A stretch of DNA of 64,000 bases from Sneathiella aquimaris. Its GTDB lineage: Bacteria; Pseudomonadota; Alphaproteobacteria; Sneathiellales; Sneathiellaceae. Location: NCBI RefSeq assembly GCF_026409565.1, contig NZ_CP112881.1, forward strand, positions 1,845,501 through 1,909,500, given 5' to 3'. Below the pieces are notes generated by a model. It was not told the DNA's origin. It ran no database searches and saw nothing but the letters and a program-made list of their open reading frames with translations. Of this stretch, positions 2,504-35,358 are shown piece after piece. Made by a program: the position numbers and the translations under genes. How positions within the stretch are numbered: position 1 is the first letter of the stretch; every line of letters starts with the position of its first letter.

Positions 2504-3739
2504 TTAAAAGCGATCCGCTCGCAAAGAATTAATATCAATAGAAGGTTGTTTATTGTCGATGAGTTCTGACACAAGTTGCGCCGTTGCACTGGATTGCGTC
2601 AGACCCAAATGTCCATGGCCGAACGCATAGATTACGTTTCGGGCAGAGGGGGCTGGCCCGATCACAGGGAGGGTGTCTGGAATGGCAGGGCGTGCCCCCA
2701 TCCATTCAACGCCGTCAGATACTGTCAGGTTTGGAAGCAGTTTTGATGCTTTAGCCATCATGATTTTGCAACGTTTATAATTCGCGGCCCGACCAAGTTT
2801 GGCAATTTCCGAAGCGCCGCCCACACGAATACCATTGGAGAGCGGCACTACGACAAACCCATGATCTGAAAATACAAGGGTGTGATCCAGACTTTCAAAT
2901 GCGGTTTTTGGCAGCGTCGTATTGTAGCCGCGTTCTCCGATCAAGGGAACAGGATCGCCCAATTGTCGACTTAGCGTAGCGGACCAAGGCCCGGCAGCAA
3001 TGACTATTTTATCGGCCTGAAGGGTTTCGCCGTTTTTTAAAAGGACGCTTCCCTCTGAAACCCGTTTCACTTCCTCATATACGGTTTCGACGCCTTTTGA
3101 TGTCAGAAATCTGTGTATTGCCGCGCAAAAATCCATGGGGTTAGAAACAGACTGCCATTCGGTTGCGAAAATTCCGGCGACAAATGACGGACTGAGGCCG
3201 GGTTGAAATTGGTGTAACGCATCCCCTTCATAACAGTCATATGCAATATTATGGGTTTTGCGAAACTCCCATTTTTTCAAGTCAGCCTTATAAGACGCCT
3301 TACTTTGGTATAGATGCAACGCGCCATTGGTCCGCACCATAGAAGAAAGACCCGTCCGATTTAGCAGATCGGGGAAAGTGTCTTTGCTCAGATGCATCAG
3401 GGCCGCCTGAACATCAATACTTCTTTGAAACTGGGCAGGATGCGCCGCCTTTAAAAATTTCAGCAGCCAGTTCAGTGTAACTGGCAGGTCTTGTGGCACA
3501 ACAGCAAAAGGTCCTAAAGGGTCAAGGAACCATTTAAGGGCCTTTTTAATAATTCCAGGGGATGCCAGAGGTATAATATCAGAAAAAGCCAGACCGGCGG
3601 CGTTTCCTTGCGAGGCACCGGCGGCGATGCTGTCTTTTTCAATCAGCGTAACTTTTTTGCCAACGCTGACAAGCTTTTCAGCGATCGCTAGTCCGATGAT
3701 ACCGCCGCCAATAACGACAACTGTTTCTGGCTTCCCCAT
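2504..3739 (-). CDS. FAD-dependent D-amino-acid dehydrogenase (probable D-hydroxyproline dehydrogenase)
   Basis: A 411-residue DAO/DadA-type flavoprotein. The N-terminus carries the dinucleotide-binding signature VVVIGGGIIGLAIAEKL, followed by an ESD-type acidic strand end (TLIEKDSIAAGAS). The C-terminal part has GMGAR-like and GHGHLGLT segments that contact FAD in this family. In this operon it should oxidise cis-4-hydroxy-D-proline, made by the downstream epimerase, to delta1-pyrroline-4-hydroxy-2-carboxylate. Electrons probably pass to the respiratory chain as for DadA. It lies 11 bases after the aldehyde dehydrogenase gene. A general D-amino-acid dehydrogenase would look the same; the substrate is from context. 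Confidence 0.85.
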   Translation of the reverse strand: MGKPETVVVIGGGIIGLAIAEKLVSVGKKVTLIEKDSIAAGASQGNAAGLAFSDIIPLASPGIIKKALKWFLDPLGPFAVVPQDLPVTLNWLLKFLKAAHPAQFQRSIDVQAALMHLSKDTFPDLLNRTGLSSMVRTNGALHLYQSKASYKADLKKWEFRKTHNIAYDCYEGDALHQFQPGLSPSFVAGIFATEWQSVSNPMDFCAAIHRFLTSKGVETVYEEVKRVSEGSVLLKNGETLQADKIVIAAGPWSATLSRQLGDPVPLIGERGYNTTLPKTAFESLDHTLVFSDHGFVVVPLSNGIRVGGASEIAKLGRAANYKRCKIMMAKASKLLPNLTVSDGVEWMGARPAIPDTLPVIGPAPSARNVIYAFGHGHLGLTQSSATAQLVSELIDNKQPSIDINSLRADRF

Positions 3740-3750
3740 GGATCTTTTCC

Positions 3751-5181
3751 TTACGCCTGCATGTAGGACGTTTTGACGGTGCTATAGAATTCAGCAGCGT
3801 AGCGGCCCTGTTCGCGGGATCCATAGCTGGATCCTTTTGTCCCGCCAAAAGGAACGTGATAATCGACGCCTGCGGTTGGCAGGTTGACCATCACCATGCC
3901 TGCTTTGGCATTGGCTTTGAAATCCGTAGCGTATTTCAACGACGTTGTACAAATGCCCGCGGACAAACCAAATTCCGTGTCATTTGCCAGTTTCAACGCC
4001 TCCTCATAATCCTTTGCCTTGATGATGGTGGCAACAGGACCAAACACTTCTTCTTGATTGATCCGCATATGATTGGCGGTATCAACAAACAGGGCAGGGC
4101 TCATGAAATGGCCTGAGCCTTCAATTTTTTCGCCGCCACAGACTAGTGTTGCGCCTTCTTGTTGAGCAATCTGTACATATTCCAGATCTTTTTCAAGCTG
4201 ACGCTGATCAATAACCGGGCCAATTTGTGTACCGGCTTTGCGGGCGTCACCGACAGTGAGGGCCGAAACCGTTTTGCTCATGGCTGCGACAAATGCATCA
4301 TAAATGCCTTCCGTCACGATCAATCTGCTCGACGCTGTACACCGCTGCCCAGTCGAGAAAAACGCACCGTTCACGCAGGCACCCACAGCTATATCCAGAT
4401 CCGCATCATCCAGAACAACCATCGGGTTCTTACCGCCCATTTCAAGCTGCACTTTTTTGAGGTTCTTTGCGCAACCCTGCGCAACTTGCTGACCGGTCTG
4501 CACGGACCCTGTAAAGGAGATACCGGCAACTTTCGGATGGTCGATCATGACCGGACCAATTTTTGATCCTTTGCCGTTCACCAGGTTAAAGACACCTTTT
4601 GGCAGACCTGACCGATGAATGATATCGGCAAGTGCCCAGGCGCTGCCGGGGACAGCTTCCGCCGCCTTCATAACGACAGCGTTGCCATAACAAAGGGCAG
4701 GGGCTGACTTCCATGCGGGAATAGCAATCGGAAAGTTCCAAGGTGTGATAATACCAATAACACCAAGGGCTTCACGGCGAATATCGACTTCAACACCGGG
4801 ACGGACAGACTCAAGACGTTCCCCTGGAATACGCAAAGCTTCGCCGGCGAAAAACTTGAAAATCTGGCCAGCCCGGGCAACTTCACCAATGCCTTCGGGT
4901 AAAGTTTTACCCTCTTCGCGGGCGAGTAAATCCCCGAGCTCTTCTTTGCGTGCCAATATTTCGGTGCCAATAGCATCCAAAATGTCGAAACGTTGCTGAG
5001 GCGTGCTTTTGCTCCAACCCACCTGCGCCGCGGCGGCGGCGTCTATTGCCTGTTCAACTTCTTCTGTCGTGGCACTGGCGGCTTGACCGATCACATCATT
5101 GGTATCCGATGGATTGACGTTGGGGACGCTTTGCGTCCCCATTGTCCATTCACCGTCAATCAGGTTTGGAAAATTAGTCAT
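3751..5181 (-). CDS. 2-oxoglutarate semialdehyde dehydrogenase (aldehyde dehydrogenase family)
   Basis: A 476-residue NAD(P)-dependent aldehyde dehydrogenase. The general base Glu is in QLEMGGKNPMVVLDDAD and the catalytic Cys in FFSTGQRCTASSRLIV; GFTGS-type and PWNFPIAIPAWK motifs are also present. The KGSADH group, close to succinate-semialdehyde dehydrogenase in sequence, oxidises 2-oxoglutarate semialdehyde to 2-oxoglutarate, the last step of hydroxyproline breakdown that delivers carbon to the TCA cycle. The gene lies 12 bases after the DapA-family deaminase and before the dehydrogenase, which is the order expected for this pathway. Other semialdehyde substrates are possible from sequence alone. 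Confidence 0.88.
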   Translation of the reverse strand: MTNFPNLIDGEWTMGTQSVPNVNPSDTNDVIGQAASATTEEVEQAIDAAAAAQVGWSKSTPQQRFDILDAIGTEILARKEELGDLLAREEGKTLPEGIGEVARAGQIFKFFAGEALRIPGERLESVRPGVEVDIRREALGVIGIITPWNFPIAIPAWKSAPALCYGNAVVMKAAEAVPGSAWALADIIHRSGLPKGVFNLVNGKGSKIGPVMIDHPKVAGISFTGSVQTGQQVAQGCAKNLKKVQLEMGGKNPMVVLDDADLDIAVGACVNGAFFSTGQRCTASSRLIVTEGIYDAFVAAMSKTVSALTVGDARKAGTQIGPVIDQRQLEKDLEYVQIAQQEGATLVCGGEKIEGSGHFMSPALFVDTANHMRINQEEVFGPVATIIKAKDYEEALKLANDTEFGLSAGICTTSLKYATDFKANAKAGMVMVNLPTAGVDYHVPFGGTKGSSYGSREQGRYAAEFYSTVKTSYMQA

Positions 5182-5193
5182 TAATATTTTTCC

Positions 5194-6099
5194 TTAAGCT
5201 GCGAGCGTATATTTGGAAAGGTTTGGACGACAGGCGATCTGGTCGCGGATAATTTTCTCAACTTTAGCGCGGTGCTCGCCTTTCAGGATCTGGCGCGGGG
5301 CGCGAACGTGCTCTGTTGAGCCAATTGCGATGGCTTCGGCCAGTTTAATCTGCTGAACCAGCGCGGTTGAAACGTCTAGATCAAGCAGGGGACGTAACCA
5401 GCGATAAATCTCGCGTGCTTCAGTAATGCGCCCTTCCTGAACCAGATCGTAAATCCGCTGATTTTCTTCAGGGAATGCGATGGAAACACCGGAAACCCAA
5501 CCGTCGGCCCCCATCAGAAGCGCTTCAAGACCCAGATTATCAACACCTGTCAGAATGTTGTAACGGTCACCGCACATATTGACGATATCGGTCAGACGAC
5601 GGATGTCATCAGAACTTTCCTTAATCGCAACCATGCGATCGTCTTCTGCAAGTTCGACCATCATTTCTGGTGTTACATCAACCCGGTAGGCAACGCGGTT
5701 TGAATAGATCATGACAGGCAAATCACCCGCAGAGGAGATTGCTTTCAGGTTCGTGATCGTTTCATCACGGTCTGTGTGATAGATCGGGCTTGGAACAACC
5801 ATCAGGCCGTCTGCACCTGCTTTGCGGCCCATCTGTGCAAGATCGCATGCTTCACGGGTGCCTGCCTCGCTGACTGTCAGAAGAACAGGCTTGTCACCAC
5901 AGGCAGATTTCGCGATTTTCAATACATCAATGCGCTCTTCAGGGCTAAGCATTGAGCCTTCACCGAGGGTACCGCAAACAATTACGCCTGCATTGCCTGC
6001 ATCCATCTGCAAACCGATGCACCGTTCCATTTCAGCAACATCGATTGAACCGTCTTCATTAAATTTAGTCGTGACGGCAGGCATCATACCTTTCCACAT
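5194..6099 (-). CDS. DapA-family lyase, probable delta1-pyrroline-4-hydroxy-2-carboxylate deaminase
   Basis: A 301-residue TIM-barrel protein of the dihydrodipicolinate synthase/N-acetylneuraminate lyase family. The Schiff-base lysine is Lys160 (MVAIKESSDD) and the assisting tyrosine is Tyr132 (VMIYSNR); the CGTLGEG segment matches the family GTTGE loop. In hydroxyproline operons this family member deaminates and dehydrates delta1-pyrroline-4-hydroxy-2-carboxylate to 2-oxoglutarate semialdehyde. It stands between the ABC importer and the semialdehyde dehydrogenase genes. True DapA is unlikely because the neighbours are catabolic. Confidence 0.87.
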   Translation of the reverse strand: MWKGMMPAVTTKFNEDGSIDVAEMERCIGLQMDAGNAGVIVCGTLGEGSMLSPEERIDVLKIAKSACGDKPVLLTVSEAGTREACDLAQMGRKAGADGLMVVPSPIYHTDRDETITNLKAISSAGDLPVMIYSNRVAYRVDVTPEMMVELAEDDRMVAIKESSDDIRRLTDIVNMCGDRYNILTGVDNLGLEALLMGADGWVSGVSIAFPEENQRIYDLVQEGRITEAREIYRWLRPLLDLDVSTALVQQIKLAEAIAIGSTEHVRAPRQILKGEHRAKVEKIIRDQIACRPNLSKYTLAA

Positions 6100-6156
6100 A
6101 GTCGTATTCCTTTACTTGATTGTAATGAGGGTTTTTAAATTCAGTACTCGTTTGTC

Positions 6157-6879
6157 CTAGCGAACATTCGCCAGGAACTTCCGGGTGTGTTCACTCGTCG
6201 GATTTCCAAAGATCTGATCGGGTGGACCGATCTCTTCCATGATCCCCTGATGAAAATAGGCAACACGGTCTGAAACATCCCGAGCAAAGCCCATTTCATG
6301 GGTGACACAAATCATTGTCATGCCTTCTTCGGCGAGCATGCGCATTGTTTCAAGAACTTCACCCACCAATTCAGGGTCAAGGGCTGAAGTTGCTTCGTCA
6401 AACAGCATATATTCCGGCTCCATCGCCAAGGCACGGGCAATGGCAAGGCGTTGTTGTTGCCCGCCGGACAACGCTGACGGATAGGCATCGAGTTTGTCGC
6501 CCAGGCCAACATGCTTCAGTTGTTTTTCCGCAATCGCGACGGCTTCTTTTTTCGACTTCTTTTTTACAATACGCGGGGCGAGGGCGACATTTTCGACGGC
6601 CGTTAAATGCGGAAAGGAATTCCATTGTTGGAAAACCATTCCCATATTTTGCCGTAGCTGATTGATGTCGACGCCTTTTTCATGGACGGAAACACCATCG
6701 ACGCGAACTTCGCCCTTCTGGATGTCTTCAAGTGCATTGATGCAATATAGAAGCGTTGATTTACCGGAGCCGGATGAACCGATAACACTGAGAACCTCGC
6801 CTTTTTTGACCGTCAGATCGATCCCTTTCAGGACATGGAGGTTTCCGAAAAATTTGTGGAGTCCTTTGATCTCAATCAT
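6157..6879 (-). CDS. Amino-acid ABC transporter, ATP-binding protein
   Basis: A 240-residue ATPase of the GlnQ/HisP type that would energise uptake through the two permeases upstream. Visible motifs are Walker A (IGSSGSGKSTLL), the Q-loop region (MVFQQWNSFPHLT), the signature ALSGGQQQRLAIARAL, Walker B (MLFDEATSALDPE) and the switch histidine (CVTHEMGFA). I place the start at the ATG that overlaps the permease stop codon (ATGA), nine bases inside a longer GTG-initiated frame; the four-base overlap is typical of coupled ABC genes. The substrate is inferred to be hydroxyproline or proline from the operon. Confidence 0.92.
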   Translation of the reverse strand: MIEIKGLHKFFGNLHVLKGIDLTVKKGEVLSVIGSSGSGKSTLLYCINALEDIQKGEVRVDGVSVHEKGVDINQLRQNMGMVFQQWNSFPHLTAVENVALAPRIVKKKSKKEAVAIAEKQLKHVGLGDKLDAYPSALSGGQQQRLAIARALAMEPEYMLFDEATSALDPELVGEVLETMRMLAEEGMTMICVTHEMGFARDVSDRVAYFHQGIMEEIGPPDQIFGNPTSEHTRKFLANVR

Positions 6880-7538
6880 GAGGCCCACCTTTCTTCTAAT
6901 TTAGATGAATATTTTGAAAGCGGATAGGAAAGTGCAAAGTAAAATGCCCCGGCACATGCCAAAATGATGAAGGGTTCCTGCGTGCGGGTAATCAGGATTT
7001 GTGATGCTCTTAGCAGTTCAACATATCCAAGCACGGACACCAATGCGCTGTCCTTCACCACACTCAAGGCGACCCCAACCCATGACGGAAATACAGCGCG
7101 CAGACCAATTGGCCAAACGACATACCGCAGATCCTGCCAGTAGCTCATGCCAAGGGACCGGGCGGCGCGGCGCATTGGTGTGCCAACGGCTTCAATACCC
7201 CCGCGTGCAACATTTGCAACCAGAGCGGCGGTGTAGATACTGAGCACAAACGCCCCCGACGCAAATGGATCCAAATTCCAGCCGATGATTGGAAAAAAAT
7301 TGTAGAACAGGATCAGTTGAATGATCAGCGGAACACTTCTGAAAATGTCTAGTATTGTTCCGATCGTAACCTGCGCAGCCCAACGCGAGGCTGACAAAGC
7401 CCAACCAAAAAAGCATCCAAGAATGGTACCAATGGTAATGGACACAACAGAAATCATTAACGTTCTGCCAGCAGCTTCTCCAAGAAAAAGGAGGTCGCTT
7501 ACCTGAAAGTCTGTGAAGAAAGAAATATCGTTACTCAT
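6876..7538 (-). CDS. Amino-acid ABC transporter permease (second)
   Basis: A 220-residue inner-membrane permease of the HisMQ/GlnP type. It has several hydrophobic segments and the EAA-like cytoplasmic loop (EAVGTPMRRAARSLGMSYWQDLRYVVWP) that contacts the ATPase. It forms a heterodimer with the preceding permease, 16 bases upstream, and its stop overlaps the start of the ATPase gene. Substrate inferred from context: hydroxyproline or a related imino acid. Confidence 0.9.
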   Translation of the reverse strand: MSNDISFFTDFQVSDLLFLGEAAGRTLMISVVSITIGTILGCFFGWALSASRWAAQVTIGTILDIFRSVPLIIQLILFYNFFPIIGWNLDPFASGAFVLSIYTAALVANVARGGIEAVGTPMRRAARSLGMSYWQDLRYVVWPIGLRAVFPSWVGVALSVVKDSALVSVLGYVELLRASQILITRTQEPFIILACAGAFYFALSYPLSKYSSKLEERWAS

Positions 7539-7554
7539 GAAAAGGCTCCTTTCT

Positions 7555-8214
7555 TCAATATTTGAATAAACGGCGGGCTGCGAGTTTCGAGCCGCCCAAA
7601 ATGATTTTCACGATGACGTAATAGATGACGGCCGTTACGGCGAAATATTCGAAAATCCGATAGGTCTTCGATGCAAAGAATTGTGTTTCGCCAGAAAGTT
7701 CACGAAAACCAACGAGCATACCGAGTGAGCTCATCAGAACAGCCCAAACCATTTGGTTGGTCATCGGGTGGTAAACAATTCGAAGGACTTGCGGGATAAT
7801 GATGCGAATATAGGTTTGGGTGGCAGTCATGCCCAGTGAACGAGCCGCCCGAATTTGAGTGTTCGGCACTGCCTGAAATCCACCTCTGAAATTCTCGGCC
7901 AGATAACCTGCGTTATTGAAGGCAAGCCCAACAAGAACAATGAAGTACGGGCTTAAGTGAATGCCGAACGCACCAATGCCAAATCCAAAGAAGAATAGTT
8001 GGAACAAAGCTGGTGTGTTGCGTGCGATTTCGACCCATGCCGTGGCAAACATTCTGATCGGGGCTGGTGCGGAAATTCTTGCAATGGCAAGAAGTAATCC
8101 GATGACGATCCCCAGGATCATAGAAAGGATAGCCACTTCCAGTGTCAGCAGGCCAGCGTTTAACAGATCAGGGAGTTGCCGGAAAACAGGGCGCCAGTGA
8201 AAATTATAATCCAC
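7555..8214 (-). CDS. Amino-acid ABC transporter permease (first)
   Basis: A 219-residue HisMQ-type permease. The EAA loop is visible as FQAVPNTQIRAARSLGMTATQTYIRIIIP, and the first transmembrane stretch is LTLEVAILSMILGIVIGLLL. It is transcribed after the binding-protein gene, with a 71-base gap that contains a GC-rich inverted repeat. Together with the second permease it would form the channel of the importer serving the hydroxyproline operon. Confidence 0.9.
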   Translation of the reverse strand: MDYNFHWRPVFRQLPDLLNAGLLTLEVAILSMILGIVIGLLLAIARISAPAPIRMFATAWVEIARNTPALFQLFFFGFGIGAFGIHLSPYFIVLVGLAFNNAGYLAENFRGGFQAVPNTQIRAARSLGMTATQTYIRIIIPQVLRIVYHPMTNQMVWAVLMSSLGMLVGFRELSGETQFFASKTYRIFEYFAVTAVIYYVIVKIILGGSKLAARRLFKY

Positions 8215-8234
8215 GATTACACACTCCAGTTTAT

Positions 8235-8269
8235 CCCCCCATTAATCTTTTTTCAGGATCAAAGGGGGG
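8235..8269 (-). promoter_or_regulatory. Intercistronic stem-loop between binding-protein and permease genes
   Basis: Six Cs at 8235-8240 pair with six Gs at 8264-8269 around a 23-base AT-rich loop. It lies in the gap between the stop of the binding-protein gene and the start of the first permease. No U-tract follows in the transcribed direction, so it is not a classic terminator. Hairpins at this place in ABC operons commonly protect the binding-protein mRNA and lower downstream expression; that role is inferred. Confidence 0.45.
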
Positions 8270-8285
8270 ACGGGTTAGGGGAGGA

Positions 8286-9101
8286 TTAGTACATGACGCC
8301 TGGAATGCGGAGTTCTGGTGCTTCACCACCAACAAAAGTATTCCAATGCTGCTGGTAACGGCCAGAACGAACCTGATGGGTGACAAACAGGTTCAGGTAG
8401 TTCAACCAAGTCACGTCTTTACGTGGTCCAACAACAGACGTGTAATCCGTTGTCCATGGCATACGTGGGCCGGGAATAATTGTGTCATACTTTTCGGCGA
8501 TTGGTTTAACCGCTGTGTTGGTTGTAATACCGACATCTGCTTTACCTTGCGCAACAGCAAGGAAAACCTCGTTTTCGCTCTGGTAGCCCTGATAGTCTTT
8601 TTCCCAGCCGCGTTCTTTGGCAATTTTCAGGTATTCCTGTTCAGGAACCGTACCAACTGCAGCCGCAACCCGCTTACCGGCAAGATCTTCAAATGTTTTT
8701 ACACCTGAGTCTTTACCGACAACAGCCTGTGCATAATAAATAGCATAAGGAATTGTGAAACCAACGGTTTTAGCCCGTGCCAGAGAATCTGATGTTCCAC
8801 CGAACACCACGTCCGCGCGGTTTGTGACGATACTTGGCAGTCTTTCTGCCCAAGTGACGGGCAGGATTTCGAAGTCCACCTCGAGAGCTGCGGCAAGATC
8901 TTTACAATATTCAACGTCAAAACCCGCAGGTTCGTTGTTTGCATCGCGATAGCCGATAGGCGGGAAATCCAAAACAACGCCACAACGAAGGACGCCATTA
9001 TCGATAACATCGTCAAGTTTATCCGCTTGCGCCGGTGCCTGTGACAGGCAAACGGCAAGACTGGCCCCGAATGCCATTGTCTTCATAAAACGACCCAACA
9101 T
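8286..9101 (-). CDS. Periplasmic amino-acid-binding protein of the ABC importer (SBP_bac_3)
   Basis: A 271-residue exported solute-binding protein. The N-terminus has a Sec signal (MLGRFMKTMAFGASLAVCLS, then AQAPAQA-type cleavage). Family features are the opening strand GVLRCGVVLDFPPIGYRDANNEPAGFDVEYCKDLA and the central VAAAVGT segment. It would capture the substrate in the periplasm and deliver it to the two permeases. A good ribosome-binding site (GGAGG) precedes the ATG. It is the first gene of the minus-strand operon and lies opposite the GntR regulator, so its promoter is in the shared 200-base gap. Confidence 0.92.
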   Translation of the reverse strand: MLGRFMKTMAFGASLAVCLSQAPAQADKLDDVIDNGVLRCGVVLDFPPIGYRDANNEPAGFDVEYCKDLAAALEVDFEILPVTWAERLPSIVTNRADVVFGGTSDSLARAKTVGFTIPYAIYYAQAVVGKDSGVKTFEDLAGKRVAAAVGTVPEQEYLKIAKERGWEKDYQGYQSENEVFLAVAQGKADVGITTNTAVKPIAEKYDTIIPGPRMPWTTDYTSVVGPRKDVTWLNYLNLFVTHQVRSGRYQQHWNTFVGGEAPELRIPGVMY

Positions 9102-9188
9102 AAAAATACCTCCAAAAAATTTTTAGTAACAAAACCGATATCGGAGATTTTTTTCCCTTCTCATATCGGCGGTAGAGATTTTATATGA

Positions 9189-9206
9189 TATATTGGATCC
9201 AATATA
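9189..9206. promoter_or_regulatory. Perfect 18-bp palindromic operator, probably for the GntR/FCD regulator
   Basis: TATATTGGATCCAATATA is an exact palindrome centred between 9197 and 9198. FCD-type GntR regulators bind short palindromes with TTG...CAA half-sites, and this one lies 83 bases upstream of the binding-protein start and about 100 bases upstream of the divergent regulator. A single site could control both directions. A shorter 10-bp palindrome, CCGATATCGG, lies at 9135-9144 in the leader of the transporter gene and could be a second site or an RNA hairpin. Confidence 0.7.
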
Positions 9207-9307
9207 AAATATAAATTTTACAAAATCGTCATTTTGTTCTGTCAGATTTGACAGGTTTCACTTAGTTGACTATTGAAAAGGTCAGGAAAAACAAGGAGTT
9301 TCAGGTT

Positions 9308-9988
9308 TTGTACGCAGGTATGAAAGATCGGGCGATTGATCTTGGTAAAATAGCATCTTCTTCAGATATTATCTTTGATGCCCTAAGAGATGAGATCATT
9401 AACGGGAATTTGAAAGCAGGCGAGTCGATCCGGCAGGAGTATATTGCCAAGATTTTCAACGTGAGCCGAATCCCTGTTCGGGAAGCCCTGAAGCGGCTTG
9501 AAGCGCAAGGGTTGGTGAAAAACGAACGCTATAAGGGCGCAATCGTTTCTTCTCTCAGTGATGACGAAATAGCGGAGATTTTCGAGATTCGCCGAAATCT
9601 GGAACCATTGGTTCTTAAATATTCGATCGAGAATATGACCCAGGAGACTTTGGAACTTGCCCGGAAGTATTGCGACGCATTTGGGGCTGAAGAAGATTCG
9701 TCCAAATGGGGAGACCTGAACCGCCAGTTTCATGAAACCCTGTATCGTGACTGCCAGCGACCCTATCATTTAAAAATTATTGGAGAAGCAATTGACCGCA
9801 TCGATAGTTACATTCGGGCCCAATTGGTCCTGACCAAAGGGATGGGAACGGCGATCAAAGAACATACCGAAATTCTGAACGCCTGCGAAAAAGGGGATGC
9901 TGACCGCGCCGCAGCCTTAACCCACAAACATATTGCAGACTCCTACAGCTCGTTAATGGGTTATCTGCGGAAAAAAAGTAAAGACTGA
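9308..9988 (+). CDS. GntR-family transcriptional regulator, FCD (FadR) subfamily
   Basis: A regulator with an N-terminal winged helix (IFDALRDEIINGNLKAGESI, then VSRIPVREALKRLEAQGLV) and a C-terminal FCD ligand domain (EIFEIRRNLEP, FHETLYRDC, EHTEILNACEKGD). It faces the hydroxyproline operon and most likely represses it until a pathway metabolite binds. Start choice: a TTG at 9308 has a good AAGGAG nine bases upstream; the frame is open further upstream to a TTG at 9266, and an ATG at 9320 is another option but is 21 bases from that site. The exact start is therefore uncertain by a few residues. Confidence 0.88.
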   Translation: MYAGMKDRAIDLGKIASSSDIIFDALRDEIINGNLKAGESIRQEYIAKIFNVSRIPVREALKRLEAQGLVKNERYKGAIVSSLSDDEIAEIFEIRRNLEPLVLKYSIENMTQETLELARKYCDAFGAEEDSSKWGDLNRQFHETLYRDCQRPYHLKIIGEAIDRIDSYIRAQLVLTKGMGTAIKEHTEILNACEKGDADRAAALTHKHIADSYSSLMGYLRKKSKD

Positions 9989-31334: not shown

Positions 31335-31901
31335 TCAAGCCATTGTTATGGTTCTAATAATTCCATGCCAATCGGGCGTACTGGCTCCGGTTTTGCTCAC
31401 CGCTTGGGATCCGAAATACAGATTGGTAATGATGGTCGCCTGCTGCGATGCGAGGCTTTTATCCGTCATTTTTTCCTGAAGGTTTAAAGTGAGCGCGTTT
31501 TGGATACGTGCCCACATACTGGAAGTTATTTTAGCGACATCACTATCAATGGGTCCCAGTTCAACCATCGCATTGCAGATTAAACAACCCCGCCGGTTCT
31601 TTAAGGGGGCCCGGTCGTCGATATTGTTATTGAACATAGTAAGAATGCGTTCCATAGGCGGTCCTAAACGGACATCTGTAAGGCGGTTGACCGTTTGACC
31701 CACATAGCATTCGTCATATCGTTTTAGCGCTTCCAGATACACAGATCGTTTATCGCCGTAGGCCTTGTAAAAAGATCCACGGGTAAGACCCATTGCTTTC
31801 AGAAGATCAGGCAAATTTGTTGCACTGAAACCGTTTTCCCAAAAAATCTGCAAGGCACCCTCTAGGGCTGTGTCATTATTAAATTCTCTCGGTCGGGCCA
31901 T
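31335..31901 (-). CDS. TetR/AcrR-family transcriptional regulator
   Basis: A 188-residue regulator starting MARPREFNNDTALEGALQIFWENGF with the helix-turn-helix LPDLLKAMGLTRGSFYKAYGDKRSVYLEAL. The C-terminal part includes RRGCLICNAMVELGP, a Cys-pair seen in a subgroup of TetR regulators that respond to electrophiles. GGAGG lies before the ATG. It is divergent from the YHS-domain gene, with a palindrome in the gap. Confidence 0.88.
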   Translation of the reverse strand: MARPREFNNDTALEGALQIFWENGFSATNLPDLLKAMGLTRGSFYKAYGDKRSVYLEALKRYDECYVGQTVNRLTDVRLGPPMERILTMFNNNIDDRAPLKNRRGCLICNAMVELGPIDSDVAKITSSMWARIQNALTLNLQEKMTDKSLASQQATIITNLYFGSQAVSKTGASTPDWHGIIRTITMA

Positions 31902-32081: not shown

Positions 32082-32555
32082 ATGTTTAAACTGTTACGGA
32101 ATATTGCTGTTGGTGCAGTCTTATCCACAATTCTTTTCGCGACGGCCATGGCTGCCGGTGTCGATGTCAACGCCACAACTACAGGATTGGCGATGCGCGG
32201 CTATGATCCGGTATCCTATTTCCAGGGCGCCCCGGCAGAAGGTGATTTGGCTCATACTGCTGAATTCAATGGTGCAACTTACCGATTTGCAAGCGAAGCA
32301 AACAAAGAAAAATTCGTCGCTGCTCCTGAAAAATATGCGCCTGCTTACGGTGGATATTGTGCCTTTGGCACAGCAATGGGTTTCAAATTTGATGGCGATC
32401 CAAAAATCTGGAAAATCGTTGACAACAAATTGTACCTGAACCTGTCCAAAAAAGTACAGGGTCGCTGGGAAAGCGAGTTGAACGAGCTTATTGAGCAGGC
32501 CGATAACAAATGGGTCAACATCAAAGACAAAGCTCCTGAAGAACTCGCAAACTGA
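32082..32555 (+). CDS. Exported YHS-domain protein
   Basis: A 157-residue protein with a Sec signal (MFKLLRNIAVGAVLSTILFA ending MAAG) and a YHS domain: GLAMRGYDPVSYFQGAPAEGD, YRFASEANKEKFVAAPEKYAPAYGGYCAFGTAMG. YHS domains are thought to bind metals through the Cys (Cys93). It may hold copper or another metal in the periplasm. AGGAG precedes the ATG. It lies 96 bases before the bufferin precursor, but a hairpin terminator lies between, so partial cotranscription only. Confidence 0.85.
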   Translation: MFKLLRNIAVGAVLSTILFATAMAAGVDVNATTTGLAMRGYDPVSYFQGAPAEGDLAHTAEFNGATYRFASEANKEKFVAAPEKYAPAYGGYCAFGTAMGFKFDGDPKIWKIVDNKLYLNLSKKVQGRWESELNELIEQADNKWVNIKDKAPEELAN

Positions 32556-32569
32556 TCTTACGAAAAAGT

Positions 32570-32605
32570 GAAGCGGAAGTGAGTGTATCTTCTGCTTCCT
32601 TTTTC
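32570..32605 (+). terminator. Terminator-like hairpin after the YHS gene
   Basis: GAAGCGGAAG and CTTCTGCTTC form a ten-base stem with one G-U pair, loop TGAGTGTAT, and a CTTTTTC tail. It would reduce read-through into the bufferin-like operon. Confidence 0.6.
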
Positions 32606-32651
32606 TTATGTTTGTATTGTTATTCAATGTCTTTTGATTAGGAACAGAACT

Positions 32652-32966
32652 ATGTCATCAAATAAATTGACCTCTCTTGCGCTTGCGGGTGCTGTTGCAA
32701 CGGCTCTAACCGCGTCTGCTTTTTCTGCGACAACTGCAAATGCGGCGGGTAAAGAAAAATGTTACGGTGTGTCTTTAGCTGGTGAAAATGATTGCGCCGC
32801 GGGTCCTGGAACAACCTGCGCCGGAACTTCGAAAGTAGATTATCAAGGAAATGCCTGGAAGCTGGTCCCTAAAGGCACATGCACCTCTATCGAAGTGCCT
32901 AAAATGGCGGATGGTTCTGATCGTAAAGGATCACTGGAAGCGTTGAAACGCGACCTGCCATCCTAG
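32652..32966 (+). CDS. Bufferin-type precursor peptide (DUF2282, BufA1-like)
   Basis: A 104-residue exported protein. The Sec signal covers about residues 1-32 ([20 protein letters not shown], ending ANAA). The mature part has four Cys at 37, 48, 56 and 77 ([34 protein letters not shown]), the DUF2282 pattern of bufferins, copper-binding RiPPs whose cysteines are modified by an MNIO enzyme. In Caulobacter the products protect against copper. It is followed by the enzyme, partner and DoxX genes after a strong hairpin. Copper specificity is inferred from the family. Confidence 0.87.
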
Positions 32967-32978
32967 GATCAAAGACAA

Positions 32979-33007
32979 TCAGGAAGGCGTTTATGGCGCC
33001 TTCCTGA
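32979..33007 (+). promoter_or_regulatory. Strong hairpin between precursor and modifying-enzyme genes
   Basis: TCAGGAAGGCG and CGCCTTCCTGA form a perfect 11-base stem with a seven-base loop, 13 bases after the precursor stop. The tail CTTAAATTGC is not a U-tract, so it is more likely a processing/attenuation hairpin that keeps precursor mRNA above enzyme mRNA than a full terminator. Confidence 0.7.
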
Positions 33008-33049
33008 CTTAAATTGCTTCTATACACTGATACGAAATGGAGCTGAGCA

Positions 33050-33928
33050 GTGACGGTTTCTCGTTTAAATACCCTGCCGTTCAGTGTGGGAGCCAGTTTT
33101 AAACCACAGCATTTTGACGACATACTGCAAAAGGCTGATCGCGAAATGTGGTTTGAAATTCATGCTGAAAATTATATGTCCCGCGGCGGACCATCCTTGC
33201 AGATGCTCGAACGTCTGCGGTCAGATTTCGACATTTCAGTTCATGGGGTAGGATTATCAATCGGTTCCGCCCGTGGTCTTGATAAGGATCATCTGACGCG
33301 CCTTGGAACTTTATGTGATCGGTTTGAGCCTGCGTCGTTTTCCGAACATCTTGCCTGGAGCAGTCATACCGCTGGTTTTTTGAACGATTTACTGCCTGTA
33401 CCGTATAATTCTGAAACATTAACGCAGATATGCGAGCATATTGATCAGGTTCAGACGGCACTGGGGCGGACGATGCTTCTTGAAAACCCGTCATCCTACC
33501 TTGAGTTTAAAAACAGCAGCTACGAAGAAACGGCATTTCTGAAGGAAATCTCTGAGCGAACAGGATGCGGACTTCTTCTGGATATCAACAATGTGTACGT
33601 TTCAGCCGTTAATCTGGGGTTTGATGCAACCCGCTATCTGGACAATTTCCCTAAACAAAAGATCGGTGAAATCCATCTTGCGGGTCATTCTTTGGAACAA
33701 AGTGACAGCGCGGAAACCCTACTGGTAGATGCTCATGATCGGCCCGTGGCGGATCCTGTCTGGTCTTTATACAGATCATTTATCCTGGAAAACGGCGCGA
33801 TCCCGACCTTGATTGAATGGGACAATGATATTCCTGACTGGGATATATTATCAGCAGAGGTCAGAAAGGCTCAAACTATTCTGAATGGCTTGCCTAAGGT
33901 TGAGGATGGAAACAGTCATGTCGCTTGA
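33050..33928 (+). CDS. MNIO-family enzyme (DUF692), bufferin maturase BufB-like
   Basis: A 292-residue TIM-barrel iron enzyme. Metal-ligand segments are visible in order: WFEIHAENYMSRGG, SVHGVGLSIGSARG, SFSEHLAWS, LLENPSSYLEF, LLLDINNVYVSAVNLG and IGEIHLAGHSLEQS. MNIO enzymes (multinuclear non-heme iron, oxidative) alter Cys residues of small precursors, here presumably those of the preceding peptide. A GTG start is used with GGAG nine bases upstream. Its stop overlaps the next gene. Confidence 0.9.
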   Translation: MTVSRLNTLPFSVGASFKPQHFDDILQKADREMWFEIHAENYMSRGGPSLQMLERLRSDFDISVHGVGLSIGSARGLDKDHLTRLGTLCDRFEPASFSEHLAWSSHTAGFLNDLLPVPYNSETLTQICEHIDQVQTALGRTMLLENPSSYLEFKNSSYEETAFLKEISERTGCGLLLDINNVYVSAVNLGFDATRYLDNFPKQKIGEIHLAGHSLEQSDSAETLLVDAHDRPVADPVWSLYRSFILENGAIPTLIEWDNDIPDWDILSAEVRKAQTILNGLPKVEDGNSHVA

Positions 33929-34676
33929 TGATCTACAGCAAGACTTTTCTGTGGCCCTTCTGGATCCGGACAAACCAATCCCCGAGGTAATTGATCCGTT
34001 AGCGCAGTATGACATCGAGAAGCGGTTTTCTGTCTATCGTAACAATGTTTTATCCAGTTTGATTGACGCCTTGCGTGTGGCATTTGCGACGATTGATAAG
34101 CTGGTAGGGGAAGAGTTTTTTGATGCAATGGCAGCGGTCTTTGTGCGCGTAAATCCGCCCCGGTCGCCGATCCTTGCTTTATATGGTGAGGCGTTTCCTG
34201 ATTTTTTGACGGCGTTTCCGCCGGTCGAGGAATTACCGTATTTGCCTGATGTCGCACGGTTAGAACTGGCCCGCCGGCAGGTATATCATGAAGCCGACGG
34301 GATATCTCTGGCAGGCGATTTTTTAACGCAATTTTCCGCCGAGGAATTGCCGTCTGTCAGGTTTGATTTGCATCCGGCCCACCGAACGTTATCGTTTGCG
34401 TATCCGGCGTATTCCATTTGGCAAACGAACTGGAATACAACCGGCGAGACGATCGATCTTTCTGGTTTGACGGGGGAGGACTGTCTTGTCTATCGGGAAG
34501 GATCATCCGTTCTCCAGCGGAAGCTTTGCCCCGGTGGGGCCCAGTTTATCGCGGATTTGGCGCGGGGGGACACACTTGGAGAAAGTGCAGAAAAAGCAGG
34601 TTCCATTGATGGGTTTGATCTGGCCGATTGCTTGGCCAGTATTATCGAAAGTCGGCTGGTCGTAGCTGCAAACTGA
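33918..34676 (+). CDS. MNIO partner protein (DUF2063, BufC-like)
   Basis: A 252-residue protein. The N-terminal DUF2063 region reads LDDLQQDFSVALLDPD, RFSVYRNNVLSSLIDALRVAFATIDKLVGEEFF and PYLPDVARLELARRQVYHEAD; the rest is a beta-rich domain. In bufferin and related systems this protein binds the precursor and delivers it to the MNIO enzyme. Its start overlaps the enzyme gene by 11 bases, so translation is coupled. Confidence 0.88.
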   Translation: MSLDDLQQDFSVALLDPDKPIPEVIDPLAQYDIEKRFSVYRNNVLSSLIDALRVAFATIDKLVGEEFFDAMAAVFVRVNPPRSPILALYGEAFPDFLTAFPPVEELPYLPDVARLELARRQVYHEADGISLAGDFLTQFSAEELPSVRFDLHPAHRTLSFAYPAYSIWQTNWNTTGETIDLSGLTGEDCLVYREGSSVLQRKLCPGGAQFIADLARGDTLGESAEKAGSIDGFDLADCLASIIESRLVVAAN

Positions 34677-34679
34677 CGG

Positions 34680-35276
34680 ATGAATGTCATGAGTAATATC
34701 GTACAATCCCTTTTTGGATTGCATAACAGAGTTTTTGAATTAGTCGAACGAAGTCTGGCTAACTGGCTGCCGGGTCTTGCGGCAAGAGTTGTTTTTTCGA
34801 GTGTGCTGCTGGTATTTTTCTGGCAATCAGCGGCCACAAAACTGGATGGTGGGCTGTTTTCACCGTCCGCGGGCGCCTATGCACAGATCTTCCCGAAAAC
34901 ACTGGAAGCGCTTGATTATGACACAGACAGAATGTCGGCCATTCATTCCCTGATAGTTCTGGCGGGAACCTATGCTGAATTTATTTTACCGCTTCTTATT
35001 CTGGTTGGCTTGATGACCCGCCTCGCATCCGCTGGCATGATCGGGTTTATCACCGTGATGAGCATTGTAGATATTTACGGTCACGGCCTTGACGAGAAAA
35101 GTATCGGTGGTTTGTTTGATCGTTTTCAGGACAGTGTGATCGCTGATCAACGGTTGCTATGGGTCTTTCCGCTTGTCTATCTTGTTATTAAAGGGGCGGG
35201 GATGATTTCAGTGGATGCACTGTTCAAAAAAATTCTGCCTTATTCAAGCAACAAAGCTGTGGCTTCTCACAGCTAG
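34680..35276 (+). CDS. DoxX-family membrane protein (BufD-like)
   Basis: A 198-residue membrane protein with about four helices (AARVVFSSVLLVFFWQSAATKL, LIVLAGTYAEFILPLLILVGLM, AGMIGFITVMSIVDIYG) of the DoxX type. Such a gene closes many bufferin operons; its role, perhaps supplying electrons or thiols, is not settled. The start three bases after the stop of the previous gene indicates coupling; an in-frame ATG three codons later is an alternative. Confidence 0.85.
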   Translation: MNVMSNIVQSLFGLHNRVFELVERSLANWLPGLAARVVFSSVLLVFFWQSAATKLDGGLFSPSAGAYAQIFPKTLEALDYDTDRMSAIHSLIVLAGTYAEFILPLLILVGLMTRLASAGMIGFITVMSIVDIYGHGLDEKSIGGLFDRFQDSVIADQRLLWVFPLVYLVIKGAGMISVDALFKKILPYSSNKAVASHS

Positions 35277-35322: not shown

Positions 35323-35358
35323 GGAAACGCCCGGTTTTCGCCGGGCGTTTCCAATTTT
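35323..35358. terminator. Terminator after the bufferin-like operon
   Basis: GGAAACGCCCGG and CCGGGCGTTTCC form a perfect 12-base stem with loop TTTTCG, then AATTTTTG. The oxidoreductase gene converges on it from the other side. Confidence 0.8.

Follow-up and report, generated by a model that had tools for sequence, protein, structure and literature searches.

Bufferins have been described as a minimal four-gene system, with additional conserved genes found in extremely low proportions (PMC12452194). The closest described systems are the Buf1 operons, including those of Caulobacter and the gigPABT genes of Cupriavidus (PMC12452194, PMC10304878, PMC3511200). The cysteines of exported precursors are known targets of MNIO enzymes (PMC12452194), and a sigmaF motif, GTAACC-N16-CGAA, has been reported for Caulobacter. 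The YHS_seleno proteins (NF041384) form a separate family, for which a review describes a selenocysteine form with the motif GxU (PMC13188914); we found no biochemical function for NF041384 proteins in the literature. The bufferin landscape paper (PMC12452194) does not mention YHS, and no report of a YHS-bufferin pairing was found in the open-access literature. The combination analyzed in this work, in which a YHS_seleno gene precedes a bufferin operon, is therefore apparently previously undescribed.

The window is a stretch of 64,000 nucleotides from Sneathiella aquimaris. Its positions 32652-35276 contain a complete Buf1 bufferin operon, since DUF2282 precursor, BufB-type MNIO, DUF2063 partner and DoxX protein, all encoded on the forward strand, score above their curated cut-offs. 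The first gene, bufA (32652..32966), encodes a Buf1/DUF2282 bufferin precursor of 104 amino acids (PF10048; 90.1 bits against a Pfam cut-off of 22.4) with exactly four cysteines (Cys37, Cys48, Cys56 and Cys77), all C-terminal to a Sec-type signal peptide recognized by inspection; a PDB sequence search with this precursor returned no match. Next come bufB (33050..33928, with a GTG start), encoding an MNIO-family bufferin maturase, and bufC (33919..34676), encoding its DUF2063 partner (PF09836; 85 bits against 27.2 in Pfam). The bufB product matches the MbnB_TglH_ChrH family (PF05114; 342.3 bits against a Pfam cut-off of 25) and, as a BufB-type maturase, MNIO_BufB (NF050167; 376 bits against an NCBIfam cut-off of 310), and in alignments it resembles the solved MNIOs 3BWW, the TglH-type 8HCI and MbnB. 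The bufC reading frame is listed from 33885, and the ATG at 33919 is the more likely start. A DoxX-family membrane protein (34680..35276; PF07681, 32.1 bits against a Pfam cut-off of 23.6) completes the set, and an intrinsic-terminator-like hairpin 3′ of its gene (35323..35352, forward strand; 13-bp stem, AATTTTTGTA tail) closes the operon. The first-pass annotation had called this a complete bufferin set with a four-cysteine precursor, and our analysis bears it out. A second strong hairpin (32979..33007, forward strand; TCAGGAAGGCG/CGCCTTCCTGA, 11-13 bp, z = -4.31), with a weak T tail, lies between bufA and bufB, where it might determine how much precursor is made relative to enzyme. By analogy with the relatives studied in the literature, BufB and its DUF2063 partner would turn the two central cysteines of the precursor into thiooxazoles, and the modified peptide would be exported and would then buffer excess periplasmic copper, with DoxX presumably supporting this buffering in the membrane.

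Directly upstream, on the same strand, a gene at 32082..32555 encodes an exported YHS_seleno-family protein that scores 34.7 bits for the YHS domain (PF04945; Pfam cut-off 30.3) and 141 bits for YHS_seleno_dom (NF041384; NCBIfam cut-off 70), and that contains a single cysteine, C93, in the sequence GGYCA. Two features of this region go beyond the list of the first-pass annotation. A gene for a TetR-family regulator (31335..31901, reverse strand; PF00440) with a CxxC motif is divergent from the YHS gene, and a terminator-like hairpin (32570..32608, forward strand; GAAGCGGAAG/CTTCTGCTTC, with a CTTTTTCTTA tail) lies between the YHS gene and bufA. This hairpin combines a 10-bp stem, a loop of 9 and a T-rich tail (fold z = -4.25); the simple terminator scan has a loop limit below 9, and the hairpin is therefore outside its list.

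The first-pass annotation had suggested that the YHS protein may receive or deliver copper as part of an extended copper-buffering module. Under this copper relay, the YHS protein would bind copper and hand it to, or take it from, the mature bufferin. The presence of YHS domains in metal P-type ATPases speaks for it, and one such ATPase is encoded in this same genome (C1:2835387-2837756, corresponding to 2888-5257 of locus L086), with an N-terminal Cys-rich YHS domain carrying DPVCGM...FCSNGC ligands. The Cys-rich motif of that domain is absent from the window protein, which reads DPVSYF, has its only cysteine elsewhere and so departs from the ATPase-type pattern DPVCGM...FC...C. Over the region aligned, each of the 22 bufferin-linked YHS proteins has exactly one cysteine, at the position of the GGYCA cysteine, and none carries the ATPase-type motif; no histidine or methionine is conserved among them. 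With these ligand residues absent, we rejected the YHS protein as a classical copper-binding domain, and the proposed copper receipt or delivery, judged from sequence, finds little encouragement here. Structural comparisons were likewise uninformative. PDB searches found no solved YHS relative with a metal site, and the AlphaFold model of the window protein (mean pLDDT 77.8) had no PDB match at E <= 0.001; its weak fold matches, to YHS-like repeats of ciliary proteins and, over a 28-residue stretch, to a toluene monooxygenase hydroxylase, gave no functional hint. The GxU motif of the selenocysteine form corresponds to G91-x-C93 of the window protein, and this correspondence, together with the absence of the ATPase cysteine ligands, makes a reactive thiol more likely than a copper site. 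Proteins with a single cysteine can nevertheless bind Cu(I) as dimers, which counts against a thiol-only reading. A suspected in-frame TGA selenocysteine codon in one genome (G352) was discarded, the frame retaining GGFC and the stop lying upstream of the cysteine site.

The same alignment bears on the idea that the YHS protein is a second MNIO substrate, modified at its single cysteine. It is an exported cysteine protein encoded together with an MNIO and its partner, as the known targets of these enzymes would lead one to expect (PMC12452194). The cysteine at the C93 position, however, is conserved not only in 22 of 22 linked rows but also in 62 of 63 other rows, it is kept in most YHS homologues with no MNIO nearby, and it belongs to the conserved core of the family rather than to a precursor-like motif, making this explanation highly improbable.

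Linkage between the two families was surveyed in 385 genomes from the class of the window, the alphaproteobacteria, all searched for both. An MNIO was present in 148 of them, a YHS_seleno protein in 117 and both in 67, a co-occurrence enriched with an odds ratio of 3.1. At least 12 of the 67 genomes holding both, representing six family codes, have the YHS gene just upstream of the MNIO gene and on the same strand, against a chance expectation of about 0.03, a rough value that assumes 4-Mb genomes with 1.15 MNIO genes each. In a phylum-wide sample, three further genomes sharing one family code, whose gammaproteobacterial placement is inferred from their belonging to another class of the same phylum and from their relatives, have a YHS gene directly before the bufferin genes, and in two Legionella loci the YHS gene lies about 1 kb upstream of bufA. 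A Thalassobaculum plasmid shows the order YHS-DUF2282-DUF692-DUF2063-DoxX-sigma-NrsF. Both families are common in alphaproteobacteria, as a chance or passenger adjacency would require; the observed excess and the gammaproteobacterial cases, Legionella included, leave that explanation with a nearly negligible probability, and we reject it on the basis of the 385-genome survey. The linkage is real and recurrent. The survey of YHS genes beside DUF2282 genes that the first-pass annotation had proposed thus finds them near other bufferin operons as well, and two parts of its extended module, the complete operon and the recurrent YHS neighbor, stand, whereas the copper-carrying role suggested for the YHS protein lacks support. 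Linked cases are the minority in both families: the majority of YHS homologues have no bufferin neighbor, and the majority of bufferin operons lack a YHS gene.

Linked loci are scattered over several lineages in phylogenetic trees of both proteins. Mapped on a 90-protein YHS tree, the bufferin-linked label requires 10 changes (shuffled mean 19.8), and on a 55-protein MNIO tree it requires 8 (shuffled mean 17.4). Several origins of the linkage are plausible on this basis, with the well-supported branches alone forcing only at least two label changes on each tree. Within the genus of the window, a DUF2282 gene occurs in 8 of 24 genomes, and in 7 of these 8 a YHS gene lies upstream of it. Two YHS types, 68-72% and 44-47% identical to the window protein, occupy this same slot, and no window-like YHS protein (at least 50% identity) was found in the 16 bufferin-free genomes of the genus, some of which are incomplete. 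The one exception among the bufferin-carrying genomes, G013, has no YHS gene and a near-perfect sigmaF-type promoter: its operon agrees with the Caulobacter sigmaF promoter in 9 of 10 letters, at about position 4590 of locus L065.

No match of at least 8 of 10 positions to the sigmaF motif was found upstream of either the YHS gene or bufA in the window, and sigmaF/NrsF control of the window operon was rejected on this account. Four operons that lack a YHS gene match the motif at 9-10 of 10 positions upstream of bufA, against none of the 22 YHS-linked loci, a contrast that is only suggestive, as the loci compared are not independent of each other.

Beyond the genus, the closest homologues of the window YHS protein come from roseobacters and Hyphomicrobiales, and most of them have no bufferin genes next to them; of 80 YHS loci examined, 13 show a divergent TetR-YHS pair with no bufferin gene nearby. 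These pairs (L091-L093, L095, L098-L100, L106, L113, L119, L162, L163 and L165) come from Hyphomicrobiales, Roseibium and other alphaproteobacteria. Since TetR-YHS pairs exist alone, the window has the appearance of a TetR-YHS unit set before a bufferin operon. The CxxC of the regulator (Cys106/Cys109, in GCxxCNA) is invariant in 17 of 17 homologues, which makes it a candidate thiol or metal switch. Such findings invite the view that the TetR-YHS pair is an independent stress unit that shares a niche with bufferins and has no direct functional interaction with them. In keeping with this view, other YHS types go with other regulators, and the hairpin that follows the YHS gene in the window has counterparts 3′ of 52 of 82 such genes examined, for the most part genes that stand alone. 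It is consequently doubtful whether YHS and bufA are co-transcribed in the window, and the YHS gene may have a separate transcript. On the other hand, the YHS-bufferin gap is only 33-60 nt in some other loci, which look operonic, and the same upstream slot is filled by different YHS types in unrelated lineages. Taking both sides together, we consider mere co-regulation of neighbors unlikely, if still a serious contender.

Some other linked loci have regulators that differ from that of the window. Four YHS-bufferin loci, three gammaproteobacterial and one alphaproteobacterial, have an AraC/Cupin_6 regulator nearby whose best NCBIfam match is RclR, the reactive-chlorine regulator, and no RclR-type AraC regulator was found in the window locus. 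The RclR scores (88-115 bits) are far below the equivalog cut-off of 400, and HOCl sensing at these loci is therefore only a lead; the YHS-bufferin loci examined yielded no RclA-like reductase. In locus L171 (genome G410; positions 4923-9568), a thioredoxin gene lies between YHS and bufA, and the group has an AraC/Cupin_6 regulator and AhpF/AhpC as neighbors, an arrangement that suggests a locus serving both copper and peroxide stress. Two loci from the genus of the window have metal-linked neighbors. L060 has a CDF transporter and a CueR/CadR-like MerR regulator near its YHS-bufferin locus. In L062 (genome G022), a CDF transporter, an AraC/Cupin_6 regulator and a second YHS protein of divergent sequence are encoded downstream of DoxX (7339-9638). 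The CDF transporters and the MerR regulator keep a metal role in play and, with the recurrent adjacency itself, speak for the copper relay discussed above, which we nonetheless rate as distinctly unlikely given the residues of the YHS protein.

The reading that we favor, at somewhat short of an even chance, is that a Buf1 bufferin operon was joined to a TetR/YHS unit and thereby gained a periplasmic redox protein with a single cysteine. The YHS protein would most likely be periplasmic and act through a single reactive thiol, or a selenol in some relatives, and would probably handle the thiol-oxidizing side of the same stress, for instance by reducing or resolving oxidized thiols or disulfides, rather than carry copper. 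It is the selenocysteine-containing homologues and the neighboring regulators that point to such a thiol or redox role. The YHS gene would have been joined repeatedly to bufferin operons because both are needed under shared copper and oxidant stress, and in the window the divergent CxxC TetR probably switches it. The many solo YHS genes, the many bufferin operons lacking one and the hairpin before bufA count against this reading. The broader proposal, in which exported YHS proteins with one cysteine or selenocysteine constitute a widespread undescribed extension of bufferin operons, work with the bufferin on periplasmic thiol/disulfide chemistry or on the redox state of copper, and have been acquired on several independent occasions along with regulators that sense oxidants or metals, is put forward as tentative and rather doubtful in its full extent. 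If YHS is a repeatedly recruited fifth protein, it would provide a first entry point to the function of the large, uncharacterized YHS_seleno family, whose role the linkage opens to direct testing by deleting the gene in a culturable host; it would also suggest a coupling between copper buffering by thiooxazole peptides and thiol and oxidant defense.

Comparison with known systems helps to place the locus. In E. coli, the rcl system, with RclR and the copper(II) reductase RclA, ties copper to oxidant stress (PMC7527725). The four YHS-bufferin loci with AraC/Cupin_6 regulators resemble it through their sub-threshold RclR matches, whereas the window has a TetR and no AraC regulator. The YHS domain of metal P-type ATPases belongs to the same Pfam family as the window protein (PF04945) and differs from it in its cysteine ligands. 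The window protein fits the YHS_seleno family, with its cysteine at the published selenocysteine site, and is one of a minority of NF041384 members beside a bufferin operon, its nearest relatives beyond the genus standing mostly alone. Unlike the Caulobacter-type operons, the window has neither adjacent sigmaF/NrsF genes nor the upstream GTAACC-N16-CGAA motif. With the Buf1 operons of Caulobacter and Cupriavidus it shares the four-gene core in the same order, namely a DUF2282 precursor with four cysteines and a signal peptide, a BufB MNIO, a DUF2063 protein and DoxX, and it departs from them in the YHS gene placed directly upstream and in the divergent TetR regulator.
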